Shown here: positions 10,696-49,304 of the stretch, piece after piece | Layout: the number at the start of each line of letters is the position of its first letter | Numbering within the stretch: the stretch's first letter is position 1 | Assembly: GCF_003264855.1 (NCBI RefSeq) | Contig: NZ_NFZS01000001.1 | Location: 806,001-870,000 of the forward strand | From: Dyella jiangningensis | GTDB lineage: Bacteria; Pseudomonadota; Gammaproteobacteria; Xanthomonadales; Rhodanobacteraceae | Direction of reading: 5' to 3' | Length of the DNA stretch: 64,000 nt | Translations under genes and position numbers: made by a program | The notes under the pieces: generated by a model | The model's database searches: none | What the model saw: only the letters and a program-made list of their open reading frames with translations | What the model was told of the DNA's origin: nothing

Positions 10696-11091
10696 ATGAG
10701 CGAGATTCCCGGCGATCTGAAATTCCTCAAGTCCCACGAATGGGCTCGCGTCGAAGACGACGGCCTGGTTCGCGTGGGTATTTCCGACCATGCCCAAGGC
10801 CAGCTGGGCGACCTCGTCTACGTCGAGTTGCCGGAAATCGGTGCCGCCGTGCAGGCCGGCCATGGCGTGGCGGTGGTTGAGTCGGTCAAGGCCGCCTCGG
10901 ACATCTACTCCCCGGTGTCGGGCGAGATCGTTGCGGTCAACGAAGCCCTCAACGACAAGCCGGAAACCATCAATGAAGACGCCTTCGGCGACGGCTGGAT
11001 CTTTCTGGTCCGCGCCAGCGATCGTGCCGAATTGAACGAGCTGCTCGACGCCGACGCCTACGCGGAGCTGGTCGAAAACGAAGACCACTGA
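10696..11091 (+). CDS. gcvH: Glycine cleavage system H protein
   Basis: A 131-residue lipoyl carrier protein that shuttles the aminomethyl intermediate between P, T and L proteins. The lipoylated Lys lies in [14 protein letters not shown] (near residue 64). The start [16 protein letters not shown] is characteristic. It is followed 21 bases after its stop by a strong terminator, so the gcvT-gcvH unit ends here. Confidence 0.98.
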
Positions 11092-11112
11092 TCGCTGCTC
11101 GACGCTTCGCCC

Positions 11113-11146
11113 GACGCCGGCCGCCTCAAGCGGCCGGCGTCTTTTT
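11113..11146 (+). terminator. Rho-independent terminator of gcvH
   Basis: A perfect 12-base stem (GACGCCGGCCGC / GCGGCCGGCGTC), loop CTCAA, then TTTTT. Confidence 0.95.
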
Positions 11147-11655
11147 AGGTACCGACGTGCCGTGCATCACGTTCGATGCGCCGCGTGATCGATGCCGGAT
11201 GAGTTCGAAAATCGGCGTTTTGCATCTCGCCGTCCATGCCGATAGATGGCCAAGGCGAAAGTAGGCGATCGGGGCCGGGCGAACCTTCGCGCCACCCGTC
11301 CGGCGACCCCGGGTGTCGGTCGGGGCAGGGTCGGGCGGCATTCTGTCCCCTCCGGCCGAAGAAAAATTCAGTCGTGTTTTGTTCATCCAAAATGGGGGTG
11401 CGCAGAGGCGCGCATCGCGTGAGACAGTCGCTCCAGGATGAATGAGACAGTCGAACGCGTCCGATTGGCCGTATTTGACTTATATGCCTTTTTTTAAGTG
11501 GTTTTATGCATTCCAAGATAATCGGCGAACGTTTTCGTTTAGCGGTATGGACGTCTGATCAAAAATGCACCAAGACCCCCTCCAGGCCTTGCCGGGCGGG
11601 GGTTTGGACCCTCCTGGGGGTGGGTGAAACGGATCGATTTCATGTTTAAAATCAA
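11147..11655. other. Long non-coding, AT-rich leader before metJ-H1
   Basis: About 510 bases without a credible gene. It holds an 11-base direct repeat TGAGACAGTCG at 11420-11430 and 11443-11453; a run of T (11487-11495); a lone met-box-like GGACGTCT at 11549-11556; and a C/G-rich block at 11570-11621 in which ACCCCC (11575-11580) can pair with either GGGGGT at 11599-11604 or GGGGGT at 11616-11621, giving two mutually exclusive hairpins. The local base composition is clearly lower in GC than the flanking genes. A regulatory function is inferred only from these structures. Confidence 0.5.
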
Positions 11656-11684
11656 TTGACAGCTGAAATCTTCAGGAATAGCTT
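11656..11684 (+). promoter_or_regulatory. Putative promoter of metJ-H1
   Basis: A consensus -35 TTGACA (11656-11661), 17-base spacer, weak -10 TAGCTT (11679-11684); predicted start near 11691, about 22 bases before the ATG. Confidence 0.45.
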
Positions 11685-11712
11685 TCGCATCGGAACACGG
11701 AGAACGGGTGCC

Positions 11713-12270
11713 ATGGCAACATCGAAATTCATCAAACCTTATATCGAGCATGGAGAGAAAGCCGGCGCAGTACGCAAGATCACGGTGTCGATTCCATTGC
11801 ACGTGTTGAGGCCCCTATCTGACGAACGCACCCGGCGTCAGGTAAACAATCTTCGGCACGCCACCAATAGCGATCTGCTTGTGGAGGCGTTCCTGCATGC
11901 TTTTACTGGGCAACCACTGCCAACTGATGAGGAGCTGAGACGAACTATGGCCACTGCCAAGAAAGCCGCAAAGAAACCCGCCGCCAAGAAGGCGAGCAAG
12001 AAGACCGCTGTGAAGAAGGCCGCCGCGAAGAAGCCGGTTGCCCGTAAGCCGGCCGCCAAGAAGGCTGCCAAGAAGGTCGCCAAGAAGGCCGTTGCTAAGA
12101 AGCGCCCGGCTGCCGCCAAGAAGGCTGCCGTGAAGAAGGTTGCTACCAAGAAGGTGGCGAAGAAGGCCACTGCCAAGAAGCGCACCGTGAAGAAGGCCGC
12201 TGCTGCCAAGGTGGTCAAGGCCACCAAGGCTGCCAAGGCCCCCAAGGCGGCCAAGGCTGCCAAGAAGTAA
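11713..12270 (+). CDS. metJ: MetJ methionine repressor fused to a histone H1-like Lys/Ala tail
   Basis: A 185-residue protein with two parts. Residues 1-77 are Met[12 protein letters not shown] is the ribbon strand that reads [20 protein letters not shown] is the strongly conserved central part, and [16 protein letters not shown] covers the S-adenosylmethionine pocket. E. coli MetJ has 105 residues; its C-terminal helix (about residues 80-105) is missing here. It is replaced by about 107 residues made almost entirely of Lys, Ala, Val, Thr and Pro in AAKK-type repeats (about 40 Lys, very few acidic residues), like bacterial histone H1/Hc proteins. An in-frame ATG at 11947 (residue 79), with GAGGAG 12 bases upstream, sits exactly at the junction and would yield the tail alone ([15 protein letters not shown]). 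The ATG at 11713 was chosen because the MetJ homology begins there. MetJ represses met genes with SAM as corepressor; the tail probably gives non-specific DNA binding or compaction (inference). Confidence 0.9.
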
Positions 12271-12348
12271 GCTTCACCAATAACAGGCAACACCGACTTT
12301 TCTCCCCGCGGTGCCCAGCGCGGGGGGAGTCCTTCGAAAGAGCGATTC

Positions 12349-12368
12349 GTCCCGGCCCGTGCCGGGAC
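12349..12368 (+). terminator. Probable terminator stem-loop of metJ-H1
   Basis: A perfect 8-base stem GTCCCGGC / GCCGGGAC with loop CCGT, followed by GCTTCGTTTCC. The T-tract is interrupted, so termination efficiency is uncertain. Confidence 0.45.
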
Positions 12369-12531
12369 GCTTCGTTTCCGGGGTACGAAAAATTCCTAAC
12401 GTGTCGCCTGCCGGCGCCACCGCGATGCAGGTGGCGTGTGACGACTCTCCGAAGTGTGCGTGTGCGCCGCGAAGCTACGTGCGATTTGCCGTAGTGCTGC
12501 ATTGCGGTTACCTTTCGCACATCCGCGCCGC

Positions 12532-12551
12532 GGGAACCTGGGGAGGTTCCC
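12532..12551. repeat. Perfect inverted repeat upstream of the TonB-like gene
   Basis: GGGAACCT, loop GGGG, AGGTTCCC; it ends 58 bases before the next start codon. It could be an operator or an mRNA hairpin; nothing in the sequence decides. Confidence 0.4.
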
Positions 12552-12609
12552 GCTCCTGGATTCACAGGGGGAAAAAGCGCGGGTATCTGATGCCACTCGG
12601 TGAGAGATC

Positions 12610-13650
12610 ATGGATACCCGATACACACGTCATGCGCGCCGTCGTGCGCGTGGGGCCATTCGGCCCGCTGCCATCGCCATTGTTGCTGTCGTCGCCGTGC
12701 TTGCGGCAGCGTCGTGGTTCCTCATTATCAAGCCGCACCAGGAACTGATGGACACCGAAGCCGGTGGCCATCCGTCGACACCGGTGCAGGCCGGCACGGT
12801 GGCGCCGCCACCGCCGGCCAACGTGGGTGCGATGAGCATCAACCAGCTGCTCGCCGAGGCACGCAAGGCGGTGAATGAGCAGCGACTGCTCGCGCCTGCC
12901 GGCAACAATGCCTTCGAGTTCTACCTCAAGGTGCTGGAGAAGCAGCCAGGCAACCAGGTGGCGTCCGATGCGTTGCGCGAGACCTTCCCGGTCGGTGCCA
13001 GCGTGGCCGAACAGTCCATCAACCAGCGCGACTTCAATGACGCGCAGCGCCAGATCGACCTGCTGGCGAAGGCCGACCCGGCCAACTACACGCTGACCAT
13101 CCTTCGCTCCAAGCTCGATGCCCAGCGCAAGTTGCAGGATCGCGAGCAGCAGCAGGCGTCGGACAAGGAGAAGGCGGCACAGCTGGCGGCGCAGAAGGCG
13201 GCATCGGACAAGGCCGAGGCGGATCGCCAGGCGGCCGAAGCGCAGCAGCGCACCTTGGCCGAGCAGCAGCAGCGCGCGGCGCAGGCGCGCCTGGCGCAGC
13301 AGCAACAGCAGAGCGAGGCGCGCCAGCAGCAGGCGGCGGCCACCACGGCGGCAGCGAGCGACAGCGGTGCTGCCGGCGGCACGCACGGGCCGGTGCTGGT
13401 GCGCAACGTCAATCCGCGCTATCCCACGACGGCGGTGCGCGCCAACCAGGAAGGCTGGGTGGAGGTGACCTTCACCATCACGCCGGAAGGCAACGTGGAT
13501 GACGTCAAGGTGGTGGATGCCGAGCCGCGCCACGTGTTCGACCGCGCTGCCGTGGAAGCGGTGAGTCGCTGGAAGTACCAGCCGGCCACGCAGAACGGCA
13601 CGCCGATCGCGTCGCAGGACAAGCGCCGCATCGTGTTCAAGCTCAACTGA
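12610..13650 (+). CDS. TonB-like energy transducer with coiled-coil linker
   Basis: A 346-residue protein with a cytoplasmic Arg-rich N-terminus, one transmembrane helix (about residues 19-40), a periplasmic region with a TPR-like stretch (about 70-175), and a Gln/Ala/Lys-rich coiled coil (about 175-250, with runs such as AEQQQRAAQARLAQQQQQ). It ends in a TonB C-terminal domain (about 262-346: NPRYPTTAVRANQEGWVEVTFTI, VVDAEPRHVFDRAAVEAV, WKYQPA). TonB delivers proton-motive force to outer-membrane receptors. The usual Pro-rich spacer is replaced by the coiled coil. No exbB/exbD follow; a terminator does. It may serve one of the TonB-dependent receptors in this window, or be a cell-envelope protein that only borrows the domain. 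Confidence 0.8.
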   Translation: MDTRYTRHARRRARGAIRPAAIAIVAVVAVLAAASWFLIIKPHQELMDTEAGGHPSTPVQAGTVAPPPPANVGAMSINQLLAEARKAVNEQRLLAPAGNNAFEFYLKVLEKQPGNQVASDALRETFPVGASVAEQSINQRDFNDAQRQIDLLAKADPANYTLTILRSKLDAQRKLQDREQQQASDKEKAAQLAAQKAASDKAEADRQAAEAQQRTLAEQQQRAAQARLAQQQQQSEARQQQAAATTAAASDSGAAGGTHGPVLVRNVNPRYPTTAVRANQEGWVEVTFTITPEGNVDDVKVVDAEPRHVFDRAAVEAVSRWKYQPATQNGTPIASQDKRRIVFKLN

Positions 13651-45709: not shown

Positions 45710-45725
45710 AGACGTTTAGACGTCT
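45710..45725. promoter_or_regulatory. Tandem MetJ operator (two met boxes) upstream of metX
   Basis: AGACGTTT followed directly by AGACGTCT: 7/8 and 8/8 matches to the met box AGACGTCT. Two adjacent boxes are the minimal MetJ operator. The pair ends one base before the -35 element of the metX promoter. A flanking 8-mer on the left matches at 4/8 only. Confidence 0.85.
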
Positions 45726-45756: not shown

Positions 45757-45764
45757 CTCCTTCA

Positions 45765-45875
45765 CTCATCGAGACCGGCTGAGGGACAGGCCCTTTGAAG
45801 CCGGGGCAACCTGCGGAACCTTCCGCAACGGTGCCAATTCCTGCGGCGGCGCTACGGCGCCAGCCGCGAGATGAG
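45765..45875 (+). promoter_or_regulatory. SAM-I (S-box) riboswitch aptamer
   Basis: All four helices are visible. P1: CTCATC 45765-45770 with GATGAG 45870-45875. P2: CCGGCT 45775-45780 with AGCCGG 45799-45804. P3: TGCGGA/TCCGCA around 45812-45827. P4: GCGGCGGCGC (45843-45852) with GCGCC and GCCGC (45857-45867, one bulged A). The conserved core GAGGGA, GGCCC, TTGAAGCC, GGCAACC and GGTGCCAATTCC is present. It binds S-adenosylmethionine and lies in the metX leader. Confidence 0.9.
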
Positions 45876-45919
45876 GGCAGAACCGCACCGCCCGCGCATC
45901 CGCCGGCCGTGCGTCGGCT

Positions 45920-45965: not shown

Positions 45966-46994
45966 ATGTCCAGCCAGCCGCAACCCGTCTCGCCCGCTGT
46001 GTCCGACTCTGTCGCGGCCGCCGGCGCCATGCGGCCGGACCTCACCACCCAGCGCAGCGCCCGCCGCGTCACGCTCACCCCCAAGTACGGCAGCACGCCG
46101 CGCGAAGTGGACGTGCGCTACCTGTGGTGCGGCGCGCCGGATGCGCCCACCGTCATCGTGCAGGGCGGCATCTCGGCCACCCGTGACGTGGTGGCGCTGG
46201 ACAGCGAGAGCGCGGCGGGCTGGTGGCAGGACCAGGTGGGCGCAGGCCGCCCCGTCGACCTCGATCGCTGCCGCGTGCTGTCGATCGACTGGATCACCCC
46301 GGCCGACTTCGGCGACGTGCAGGCCGTATCCAGCGAGGACCAGGCCGACGCGCTGGCCGCGCTGGTCGACGCGCTGGGCATCGGCCGCGTGCATGCCTTC
46401 ATCGGGTCTTCCTACGGCGCCATGGCCGCGTTGGCGTTTGCCGCGCGCCATCCGTATGCGCTGGGTCGCCTGGTGCTGCTGGCGGGCGCCCATCGCCCGC
46501 ACCCGTTGGCCACGGCGCAGCGCTCCGTGCAGCGCGGCATCGTGCGCCTGGGCCAGGATTGCGGCCAGCCCGAGCAGGCGCTGGCGCTCGCTCGCCAGCT
46601 GGCGATGACCACCTACCGCGGCAGCGAGGAGTTCGCCAAGCGCTTTGCCGCCGCGCCGGAATTCCGCGAAGGCCGCTTCCATTTCCCGGTTGAGGACTAC
46701 CTGGAACACGCCGGTCGCCGCTTCGTCGAGCGCTTCGACGTGGAGCGCTTCCTCGCGCTGTCCGAATCCATCGACCTGCATGACGTGCAGCCCGAGCAGA
46801 TCGCCGCGCCGTCCACGCTGATCGGCTTCCCGTCCGATCGCCTGGTGCCGCTGGCCGACCTGTGCGAGCTGCAGCGCCGCCTGCATGGTCCGGCCACGCT
46901 CGAAGTGGTCGAGTCGCCCTACGGCCACGACGCCTTCCTCAAGGAAACCGACCGCCTCGCGCCGCTGCTGCGCGAAGCACTGGCCGGCTGTTGA
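45966..46994 (+). CDS. metX: Homoserine O-acyltransferase (MetX family)
   Basis: 342 residues, alpha/beta-hydrolase fold. The nucleophile is Ser in GSSYGAMAALAF, with Asp in FPSDRLVP and His in GHDAFLKE. It acylates homoserine as the first committed step of methionine synthesis; in this order the donor is probably succinyl-CoA rather than acetyl-CoA (family knowledge, not visible here). ATG 45966 is preceded by GGAGAAG and follows the SAM-I leader. The 30-residue Ser/Pro/Ala N-terminus is variable. Followed after 37 bases by metB and then hom. Confidence 0.93.
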   Translation: MSSQPQPVSPAVSDSVAAAGAMRPDLTTQRSARRVTLTPKYGSTPREVDVRYLWCGAPDAPTVIVQGGISATRDVVALDSESAAGWWQDQVGAGRPVDLDRCRVLSIDWITPADFGDVQAVSSEDQADALAALVDALGIGRVHAFIGSSYGAMAALAFAARHPYALGRLVLLAGAHRPHPLATAQRSVQRGIVRLGQDCGQPEQALALARQLAMTTYRGSEEFAKRFAAAPEFREGRFHFPVEDYLEHAGRRFVERFDVERFLALSESIDLHDVQPEQIAAPSTLIGFPSDRLVPLADLCELQRRLHGPATLEVVESPYGHDAFLKETDRLAPLLREALAGC

Positions 46995-47031
46995 CCCCAT
47001 ACCGCATACGCATCACGCACGGAGATTCACC

Positions 47032-48222
47032 ATGAGCGACACCCCCGCCCCCTGTACCCGCGCCGTGCGCGCCGGCATCGAATCGGACACCCAGCACGGC
47101 GCCGTGGTGCCGCCGCTGCACCTGTCCACCAACTACGCGTTCGACGGCTTCGGCAACAAGCGTGCGTATGACTACTCGCGCAGCGGCAACCCCACGCGCG
47201 ATCTGCTGGGGGAAGCGCTCGCCGAGCTGGAGCAGGGCGCCGGCGCGGTCGTGACGGCCAGCGGCATGGCCGCGGTGGCGCTGGCGCTGGAGCTGGTGCC
47301 GGCCGGTTCGCTGGTGCTGGCCGCGCATGACTGCTACGGCGGCACCTGGCGCCTGCTCGACGCATGGGCGAAGAAGGGCCGCTTCCAGGTGCGTTTCGTC
47401 GATCTCACCAACAGCCATGCGCTGGCCGATGGCCTCGCGTTGAAGCCGTCGCTGGTGTGGGTGGAAACGCCGTCCAACCCGCTGCTGCGCATCACCGATA
47501 TCCGCCACGTGGCGCAGGCCGCGCACGCCGCCGGTGCACTGCTGGTGGTGGACAACACTTTCCTCTCGCCGGCGCTGCAGCAGCCGCTCACGCTGGGCGC
47601 CGACGTGGTGGTGCATTCGACCACCAAGTACATCAACGGCCACAGCGACGTGGTGGGCGGCGCCGTGGTGGCGCGTGACCCGGCCGTGGCCGACCAGCTG
47701 AAGTGGTGGGGCAACTGCAATGGCCTCACCGGTGCGCCGTTCGACAGCTTCCTCACCCTGCGCGGCCTTCGCACGCTGAGCGTGCGCCTGCGCCAGCACC
47801 AGGAGAACGCGGTGCGCATCGCCGAACGTCTGGACGGCCATGCGGCCGTACGCAAGGTCTACTATCCGGGCCTGGAAAGCCACGCCGGCCACGCGCTCGC
47901 CGCGCGCCAGCAGCTGGGCTTCGGCGCGATGCTGAGCTTCGAGATCGAAGGCGACGTGCCGCATATCGAAGCCTTCGTCGATGGCCTGCGCTACTTCTCG
48001 CTGGCCGAATCGCTGGGTGGCGTGGAAAGCCTGGTGGCGCATCCGGCCACCATGACCCATGCGTCGATGGCGCCGGAGGCCCGTCGCGCGGCTGGCATTG
48101 CCGACAGCCTGCTGCGCCTGTCGGTGGGCATCGAGGATGGCGACGACCTGCTGCGTGATCTCGATGCAGCGCTGTCGCGCGCGCTGGCCGTGGGTGAAGG
48201 CAAACGCCGGGTGAGCGCATGA
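47032..48222 (+). CDS. metB: Cystathionine gamma-synthase
   Basis: 396 residues, PLP enzyme of the Cys/Met metabolism family. The PLP Lys lies in HSTTKYINGHSD; SGMAAVALALELV, YSRSGNPTRD and ETPSNPLLRITDI are typical. It condenses O-acylhomoserine with cysteine. ATG 47032 has GGAG upstream; a longer frame overlaps metX. Its end overlaps hom by four bases. The position between metX and hom supports MetB over MetC or a gamma-lyase. Confidence 0.95.
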   Translation: MSDTPAPCTRAVRAGIESDTQHGAVVPPLHLSTNYAFDGFGNKRAYDYSRSGNPTRDLLGEALAELEQGAGAVVTASGMAAVALALELVPAGSLVLAAHDCYGGTWRLLDAWAKKGRFQVRFVDLTNSHALADGLALKPSLVWVETPSNPLLRITDIRHVAQAAHAAGALLVVDNTFLSPALQQPLTLGADVVVHSTTKYINGHSDVVGGAVVARDPAVADQLKWWGNCNGLTGAPFDSFLTLRGLRTLSVRLRQHQENAVRIAERLDGHAAVRKVYYPGLESHAGHALAARQQLGFGAMLSFEIEGDVPHIEAFVDGLRYFSLAESLGGVESLVAHPATMTHASMAPEARRAAGIADSLLRLSVGIEDGDDLLRDLDAALSRALAVGEGKRRVSA

Positions 48223-49304
48223 GCGCGGTGCTGGCGGCGGAGGCTGCAATCGCACCGAAACCGCAGGCGTCCTCGTCCATCGCCGCGGTGCTGCTCGGCA
48301 CCGGCGTGGTCGGCGGCGCCTTTCTCAAGTTGCTCAATACACCGGCGGCATCGTCGATCCGCCTGGTGGGCGCGGCCAATTCGCGCCGTCAGCAGACGCA
48401 GGCCGAACTGCTGGCCGACCGCGCATTGCGCGAGAAGCTGAAGAGCCATGGCGACGTGCGTGACGATGCGGCGTTGTTGTCCGCGCTGGACGCGAACGAT
48501 GCGGCAGTGAAAGTCATCATCGACGCGACCGCCTGCGGCACGCTCGCTTCGCGGCACTCGGAATGGCTGGCGCGTGGCTACCACGTGGTGACCGCAAACA
48601 AGTCCCTTGCCGGGGGCGATCTCCCGGGTTGGCGTGCGCTGCAGGCAGCGCTGGCGCAGGGCGGCCGCTACGGCGATTCGGCGACGGTGGGTGCCGGCCT
48701 GCCGGTGATCTCCACGCTGCGCCGCCTGCGTCATTGCGGCGACGCGCTGCTCACGCTGGAAGGCGTGTTCTCCGGCTCGCTCTCGTACCTGTTCAACCAG
48801 TACGACGGAAGCCAGCCGTTTTCGGCGTTGCTGCGTCGTGCACGCGAACTGGGATATACCGAGCCCGATCCGCGTTCCGATCTCTCGGGCGAGGACGTCG
48901 CGCGCAAGCTGCTGATACTCGCGCGCTGCGCGGGTTTCGCACTGCGTCCCGACGAAGTGGAAGTGGAAAGCCTGGTGCCGGAAAGCCTGCGTGGCGTGGA
49001 TGTGGAAACCTTCCTCGCGCGCCTGGAAGAATTGGACGAGCCGCTGGCGGCCCGTCATGCCGAAGCAAAAGCGCGCGGCGGCGCATTGCGCTTCCTCGCG
49101 CGCCTCAACCAGCGCGGCCGTGCCCGCGTGGGCCTGGTGGAGGTACCGGCCAACCATCCGGCCACGCGCCTCTACGGCACCGACAACCAGTTCGCCCTCA
49201 GCACCACGCGCTACAACACGCAGCCGCTGGTGATCCAGGGGCCCGGTGCGGGGCCGGAGGTAACAGCACAGGCGTTGCTGGGGGATGTGCTCGCGCTGGC
49301 GTGA
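48219..49304 (+). CDS. hom: Homoserine dehydrogenase without ACT domain
   Basis: 361 residues. The NAD(P)-binding motif GTGVVGGAFLKLL lies near residue 28; the catalytic domain has NKSLAGG, GAGLPVISTLRRL, FSGSLSYLFNQYDG and YTEPDPRSDLSGEDVARKL. Homoserine dehydrogenases with feedback control carry an ACT domain; this one ends after the catalytic domain, so it is probably not inhibited by threonine (inference). Overlaps metB by four bases and ends the operon. Confidence 0.95.
   Translation: MSAVLAAEAAIAPKPQASSSIAAVLLGTGVVGGAFLKLLNTPAASSIRLVGAANSRRQQTQAELLADRALREKLKSHGDVRDDAALLSALDANDAAVKVIIDATACGTLASRHSEWLARGYHVVTANKSLAGGDLPGWRALQAALAQGGRYGDSATVGAGLPVISTLRRLRHCGDALLTLEGVFSGSLSYLFNQYDGSQPFSALLRRARELGYTEPDPRSDLSGEDVARKLLILARCAGFALRPDEVEVESLVPESLRGVDVETFLARLEELDEPLAARHAEAKARGGALRFLARLNQRGRARVGLVEVPANHPATRLYGTDNQFALSTTRYNTQPLVIQGPGAGPEVTAQALLGDVLALA

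Follow-up and report, generated by a model that had tools for sequence, protein, structure and literature searches.

Sequence comparison of a family of soil bacteria, the Rhodanobacteraceae, shows the methionine-sensing repressor MetJ running directly into a predicted histone-like DNA-packing protein. The window, a stretch of 64,000 nucleotides from Dyella jiangningensis, carries one such locus (Table 1). The reading we favor, with a probability of roughly 0.78, is that a histone H1-like gene was captured by metJ and that the locus makes a fusion as well as a nested free protein. In the ancestor of the family, metJ would have captured a stand-alone H1-like Lys/Ala gene together with its own leader and 3' stem-loop (a gene that lies beside gcvH in family f3 of the same order), and the MetJ frame would now read across the former leader and on into the Lys/Ala protein. 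The leader would still be under purifying selection as an RNA or ribosome signal, and for this reason the locus would make two products. The first would be a MetJ-tail fusion acting as a SAM-responsive repressor of the met operon, on top of a SAM-I riboswitch; the positive charge of its tail probably increases nonspecific affinity for DNA. The second would be a free, 107-aa Lys/Ala DNA-binding protein translated from the internal ATG at 11947.

Table 1. Features of the metJ and met operon loci, in window coordinates
Feature	Position	Strand	Evidence or remarks
Weak met-box pair AGCGGTATGGACGTCT, 12 of 16, ~170 nt before metJ	11541..11556	+	Possible autoregulation
Promoter-like TTGACA-N17-TAGCTT, ~57 nt before metJ	11656..11684	+	Sequence
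metJ-H1 fused ORF	11713..12270	+	185 aa, 19.8 kDa; no internal stop
MetJ core, residues 1-78	11713..11946	+	Pfam, NCBIfam, and PDB matches; alignment of 25; C-terminal part of E. coli MetJ absent
Overprinted leader, codons A63 to M79	11899..11949	+	Frozen synonymous sites A63-R77; ACTGGGCA at 11905-11912; Shine-Dalgarno GAGGAG at 11929-11934
Nested histone H1-like Lys/Ala ORF	11947..12270	+	Own start, 107 aa, 10.9 kDa; conservation of ATG and GAGGAG, strongest in-frame Shine-Dalgarno, stand-alone relatives
Conserved 3' stem-loop; GCCCAG in its loop, 12313-12318	12300..12329	+	Covariation, models R1 and R2, fold of -21.5 kcal/mol
Terminator-like hairpin GTCCCGGC/GCCGGGAC, then GCTTCGTTT	12349..12377	+	Sequence and fold
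Tandem met boxes, 1 mismatch in 16	45710..45725	+	Predicted MetJ operator of met operon
SAM-I riboswitch of met operon	45763..45877	+	Rfam RF00162, 88.6 bits
met operon: metX 45966-46994, metB 47032-48222, homoserine dehydrogenase 48219-49304	45966..49304	+	NCBIfam, ORFs; starts chosen by us

A MetJ core continues into a Lys/Ala tail across the family

The N-terminal part of the fused protein, which the preliminary description of this DNA had called MetJ-like, scores well above the cutoffs of the Pfam MetJ model (PF01340; 124.6 bits, cutoff 25) and of NCBIfam NF003622 (129.8 bits, cutoff 110), and PDB entry 1cma matches residues 4 to 83 (E = 7.5e-32). All three matches stop at residues 82 to 85, from which point the Lys/Ala tail takes over. 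Counted from residue 79, which is itself an in-frame ATG (11947-11949), to residue 185, the tail has 107 aa comprising 41 K, 3 R, 40 A, and no D or E, in agreement with the earlier statement that the C-terminal helix of MetJ is replaced by about 107 residues with around 40 lysines. The positions that we take to be those of the MetJ DNA-contacting strand and SAM pocket are retained among 25 aligned sequences, including L105, L106, and L116: K22, T24, R42, E58, A59, and H62 are invariant, and F64 is almost invariant. An AlphaFold2 monomer of the core alone gave a poor model (mean pLDDT, 51.4).

We take the family to be the Rhodanobacteraceae on the basis of the named loci, which within L041-L104 include Dyella, Frateuria, Luteibacter, Rhodanobacter, Oleiagrimonas, Mizugakiibacter, Tahibacter, Dokdonella, and MAGs. 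A MetJ core was found in 227 of its 233 genomes and in all 26 genera; this count refers to the core, and the tail was verified on 99 loci. These are the complete ones among 107 distinct family loci fetched, the other 8 being cut by contig ends. The preliminary description had proposed a check of whether the fusion is conserved, and in all 99 loci the reading frame does pass uninterrupted from the core to a tail rich in lysine (20% K or more). Tail length ranged from 37 to 311 aa and lysine content from 26 to 46%.

The codons at the end of the core are frozen and lead into a putative start site

Within the core, synonymous sites are conserved unevenly. Across 61 thinned family sequences, synonymous identity was 0.83 in the 15 codons A63-R77 versus 0.49 in the other 57 core codons examined, and none of 100,000 random 15-codon sets was as conserved. 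The same codons showed no rise in nine thinned metJ sequences from enterics, Vibrio, and Pseudoalteromonas (0.53 versus 0.58). Third-position GC was 0.37 in the frozen codons versus 0.69 in the rest of the core, and the commonest form of the frozen block is ACTGGGCAACCACTGCCAACTGAYGAGGAGCTRAGA. The conserved block reaches ~24 nt upstream of the Shine-Dalgarno sequence, as far as ACTGGGCA.

The internal ATG and GAGGAG are kept in 98 of the 99 complete family loci and ACTGGGCA in 97, and the ATG is kept even where one leader codon is deleted. When all in-frame start-like codons are compared, that of metJ itself among them, the strongest Shine-Dalgarno sequence belongs to the internal ATG in 49 of 50 thinned loci, with a spacing that is long in the window (12 nt). 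The remaining thinned locus, L023 (genome G025), has no such site; it is the sole complete family locus to have lost, all together, ACTGGGCA, GAGGAG, the ATG (GTG instead), and GCCCAG, a motif of the 3' stem-loop described below. Its Lys/Ala tail is retained, and thus the internal start is dispensable there.

A 31-base leader pattern, searched with up to 3 mismatches, was found in 51 of 250 genomes of the order, all of them from the family and with one site apiece. It was found neither in G025, among the 52 family genomes sampled, nor in any of the 198 other genomes, although the pattern cannot reach the diverged leaders of sister families. A repeat of the search on G025, G047, and G056 found no site.

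A conserved stem-loop follows the fused ORF

Ten of the 11 base pairs of the stem-loop show changes on both sides (46 sequences), while the invariance of the loop in these alignments is by construction, since hairpins were picked by GCCCAG. Counting the motif irrespective of structure, we find GCCCAG no farther than 330 nt from the stop at 98 of the 99 complete family loci. Covariance model R2 missed G025 and G077 among the 52 family genomes sampled; G077 (L161) has the motif. A hairpin comparable to the terminator-like one of the window stands downstream of the stem-loop at many family loci. When positions 11090-12620 were compared with Rfam, there were three weak matches and none at gathering score at the leader or stem-loop. 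Anti-hemB was rejected as an identity for the stem-loop (22.7 bits, gathering score 49.5).

The motif CTGGGC, which lies upstream of the Shine-Dalgarno sequence, is the exact reverse complement of GCCCAG. The predicted leader/loop duplex has an energy of -16.7 kcal/mol, and 5 of 1,000 shuffled leaders did as well. A seventh base pair could form in 12 of the 18 genus types, which is not significant (P = 0.31); the six core bases hardly vary, and L104 combines a CCGGGC leader with an unchanged loop, an uncompensated mismatch. Because both motifs hardly vary, compensation cannot be demonstrated. The joint loss of ACTGGGCA, the Shine-Dalgarno sequence, the ATG, and GCCCAG in L023 fits a linked function, as a single case. 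We give the proposed RNA pairing between the leader and the 3' loop an even chance. It would resemble the Staphylococcus aureus icaR mRNA, in which, according to the available text, a short 3' UTR motif is complementary to a 5' region of the same mRNA (PMC3868564); here, in contrast, the 3' motif lies in a hairpin loop, its partner is upstream of the Shine-Dalgarno sequence instead of on it, and the pairing is a prediction.

The tail resembles a stand-alone gene of sister families

The covariance model of the 3' stem-loop, trained on GCCCAG hairpins, also matched families f3 and f2, and we used it to locate sister loci. In families f2, f3, and f6, the stem-loop stands after a stand-alone Lys/Ala gene. 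We fetched 47 sister loci, left L194 out of the count, and tested 46, of which 35, from 12 genera, have a stand-alone Lys/Ala ORF. The 11 without a Lys-rich ORF (L191, L221, and L225-L233, L191 and L221 being the same place) are mostly weak hairpin matches. Each of the 35 ORFs has GAGGA close to its start and a CTGGGC no more than 80 nt upstream, compared with 163 of 6,277 background windows. Since these loci were found through a GCCCAG-trained search, only the leader side (CTGGGC in 35 of 35) is independent there, and we assume that CTGGGC lies within the sister transcripts. The leader takes the form CTGGGC...GAGGA(G)...ATG, with ACTGACGAGGAG in most. The loci in these three further families at which a GCCCAG stem-loop follows an H1-like gene are L188-L190, L192-L193, L195-L220, L222-L224, and L234; at many f2 loci the stem-loop continues into a terminator-like T-run.

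Gene neighborhoods were also compared. In family f3, gcvH lies upstream of the stand-alone gene on the same strand in all three loci, with gcvT in two, and five of six loci checked in the fused family likewise have a same-strand gcvH upstream of metJ. It was not found at two f2 loci (L192 and L193) searched with ~1 kb of upstream flank. Given the likeness of the sister leaders and the gcvH neighborhood, the MetJ residues PTDEELRR read as a translated old leader. The codons for FTGQ in MetJ can read TTTACTGGGCAA, a sequence much like TTTCACTGGGCAAC of the f3 leader, and recombination at such a microhomology may have joined the two genes. MetJ was not found in six searched genomes of families f3 and f2, and the direction of change would have been from stand-alone to fused. 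On these comparisons, the tail is best read as the descendant of an older stand-alone gene. That metJ captured an H1-like gene and that the leader is frozen is strongly supported and in our judgment close to certain.

The core has predicted operators at the met operon

Genome-wide, tandem met boxes with at most one mismatch occur at one site, 45710-45725; four sites have at most two mismatches. The single best site lies ~50 nt before the SAM-I riboswitch, beside TTGACA. In the 200 nt upstream of SAM-I, the best 16-mer matches at 13 to 16 of 16 positions at all 21 family loci examined (that of the window and those of 20 of the 36 other family genomes searched), compared with 7 to 10 of 16 elsewhere, in 16 loci from the 14 non-family genomes having SAM-I. 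SAM-I was found in 51 of 61 relatives. The presence of met boxes and SAM-I together amounts to predicted dual control of the met operon, and of all the loci compared, only those of the family with the fused MetJ have the boxes. With met boxes ahead of the met operon, the core looks like a working MetJ and is very probably a met repressor that depends on SAM; the fusion would then repress the met operon.

All 49 thinned loci for which this flank is available have a TTGACA no more than 90 nt upstream of the core start of metJ. Many family loci have a met-box-like pair ~165 to 190 nt before the metJ start, which is often better than shuffled sequences and elsewhere not; autoregulation of metJ through the weak pair in the window is possible.

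E. coli MetJ is a 104-residue protein. The fused protein is like it (PF01340; PDB 1cma) over residues 4 to 83, including the KITVSIP strand, and in having AGACGTCT-type met boxes before met genes. It differs in lacking the C-terminal part, in place of which it has the Lys/Ala tail, and in a regulon that looks small and is layered on the SAM-I riboswitch. By its core and operators, then, the predicted product is a MetJ variant and not a canonical MetJ.

MetJ is sparse elsewhere in the order

In 24 other genomes of the order, MetJ was found in two, both from family f12. The f12 MetJ (L121 and L122) ends at about residue 79 with no tail, and its stop overlaps another reading frame. Each of the two genomes has 16 tandem met-box matches with at most two mismatches, some of them overlapping, against 0 and 3 for a reversed-pattern control; a SAM-I riboswitch was found in neither. 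A tail-less, 79-aa MetJ in genomes so rich in met boxes indicates that the core alone can probably do the job of MetJ. Whether this protein is the prefusion form was not settled by a 70-column tree of 16 rows. A class-wide sample had MetJ in 3 of 274 genomes, including that of the window, and the searched f2 genomes yielded no MetJ. Of the enteric, Vibrio, and Pseudoalteromonas loci (L105-L120), 15 of 16, those with the end printed, have a normal MetJ end.

The available texts of earlier reports give differing accounts of the order. One states that metJ is missing in Xanthomonas campestris 8004 (PMC6230763), and another that control of the MetR/MetJ type appears conserved in Xanthomonas too (PMC7270179). 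A proteobacterial survey lists MetJ in six other groups and, for Xanthomonadales, represented by four genomes, SamR and no MetJ; the text available does not name Rhodanobacter (PMC4239095). No description of a MetJ/histone H1-like fusion was found in the open-access literature searched, as far as its texts were accessible.

Possible roles of the tail and the nested frame

The preliminary description had put a SAM-dependent repressor and a DNA-compacting tail in one chain. As to the chain, it was right: the fusion is real and family-wide, and the met boxes make a SAM-dependent core very probable. Its treatment of the tail as an added domain only has to be given up, because the tail corresponds to an old gene with its leader, ribosome-binding site, start codon, and 3' motif conserved. 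These four elements point to a second, free Lys/Ala product, and we consider use of the internal start at 11947 quite likely. One stretch of DNA would thus probably make two proteins, the MetJ-tail fusion and a free histone-like protein.

A single protein, in which the tail mainly boosts MetJ through operator affinity, DNA bridging, or coupling of SAM to the nucleoid, seems to us rather unlikely. The open frame in 99 of 99 loci does imply that the fusion itself is kept, and in L023 the tail outlived the loss of the leader. There are also precedents. Mycobacterial HupB has a DNA-binding domain followed by a C-terminal PAKK/KAAK domain, as in H1/H5 histones, that is needed for nucleoid association; it has an HU core, however, instead of a metabolite-dependent repressor, and the abstract reports no nested gene (PMC5676037). 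In Porphyromonas gingivalis, the Fur-family regulator PgFur has a lysine-rich C terminus that is important in vivo, where mutants without it were affected, but the text available describes removal of a short region (4 or 13 residues) and no captured gene, and the truncated PgFur still bound its promoter (PMC6613475). Further, a booster role leaves the frozen leader and the 3' stem-loop unexplained, and a tail-less, 79-aa MetJ exists in the met-box-rich f12 genomes. For some role of the tail in MetJ binding, we regard the odds as roughly balanced, and coupling of SAM status to nucleoid structure through the fusion is possible.

We consider it improbable that only the fusion is made, with the internal ATG unused and the frozen nucleotides kept for another purpose, for example promoter activity, protein binding to the DNA, or contact of the RNA with the 3' stem-loop. 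Conservation as far as ACTGGGCA does exceed the needs of a ribosome site, and L023 has the tail without the element. Nevertheless, the frozen block resembles the stand-alone leader, with the Shine-Dalgarno sequence and ATG in the same place, and the internal Shine-Dalgarno sequence is the strongest in frame in nearly all thinned loci. It is more improbable still that the fused polypeptide is incidental or is cut apart, the cell using the MetJ core and the Lys/Ala protein as separate molecules, with the junction processed or the fusion a minor product: core and tail are each found alone in relatives, but no stop intervenes in 99 of 99 loci, even though one substitution or frameshift would split them. 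Lastly, an assembly or sequencing artifact at the junction, for which no supporting point was found, has a negligible probability and is excluded by the uninterrupted frame at every one of the 99 complete distinct loci, which come from many genomes; this disposes of both outcomes that the preliminary description had named as fatal to the fusion, a frameshift or join at 11944-11950 and homologues that are always two separate proteins.

If both the fusion and the nested protein are made, the C-terminal codons of MetJ might have two further roles, one as the leader from which a nested nucleoid protein is translated and the other as a partner of the 3' stem-loop in a long-range RNA contact. One mRNA, possibly itself under met-box control, would then determine methionine repression and also how much of a chromatin-like protein is made, so that DNA packing would be firmly wired to SAM level throughout the family. 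We offer this extended scheme tentatively, as a possibility on the unlikely side.

At nearly every family locus, we have a clear case of a 5' leader that became protein coding and is yet still selected as a leader. A textbook repressor gains a new architecture, in an order for which the four-genome survey, in its available text, listed no MetJ (PMC4239095), and the coupling of a SAM-dependent repressor to a histone-like protein becomes testable. The leader and stem-loop of the stand-alone gene form an RNA element of three families of the order, of which the window copy has no Rfam match at gathering score.

The tail shares its Lys/Ala repeat composition with HC2-type, histone H1-like proteins, and the sister relatives share the leader and stem-loop. 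Unlike these proteins, it is nested in and fused to metJ, and it scores below the HC2 model cutoffs (PF07382, 24.8 of 40 bits; NF038053, 17.7 of 80 bits); thus, "H1-like" here denotes compositional likeness and not family membership. Genes named "Histone H1" are listed for Xanthomonas campestris in the accessible part of PMC8578834. The genome of the window encodes a second Lys/Arg/Ala-rich protein (L141, G000:C4:437488-438039; 243-aa frame, 68.8 bits to HC2), so the nested ORF is not its sole H1-like protein. Lys/Ala-rich stretches also occur within frames of ~820 to 890 codons (G000:C6:194622-194846 and comparable places in other genomes), which we guess to be DNA topoisomerase I tails.
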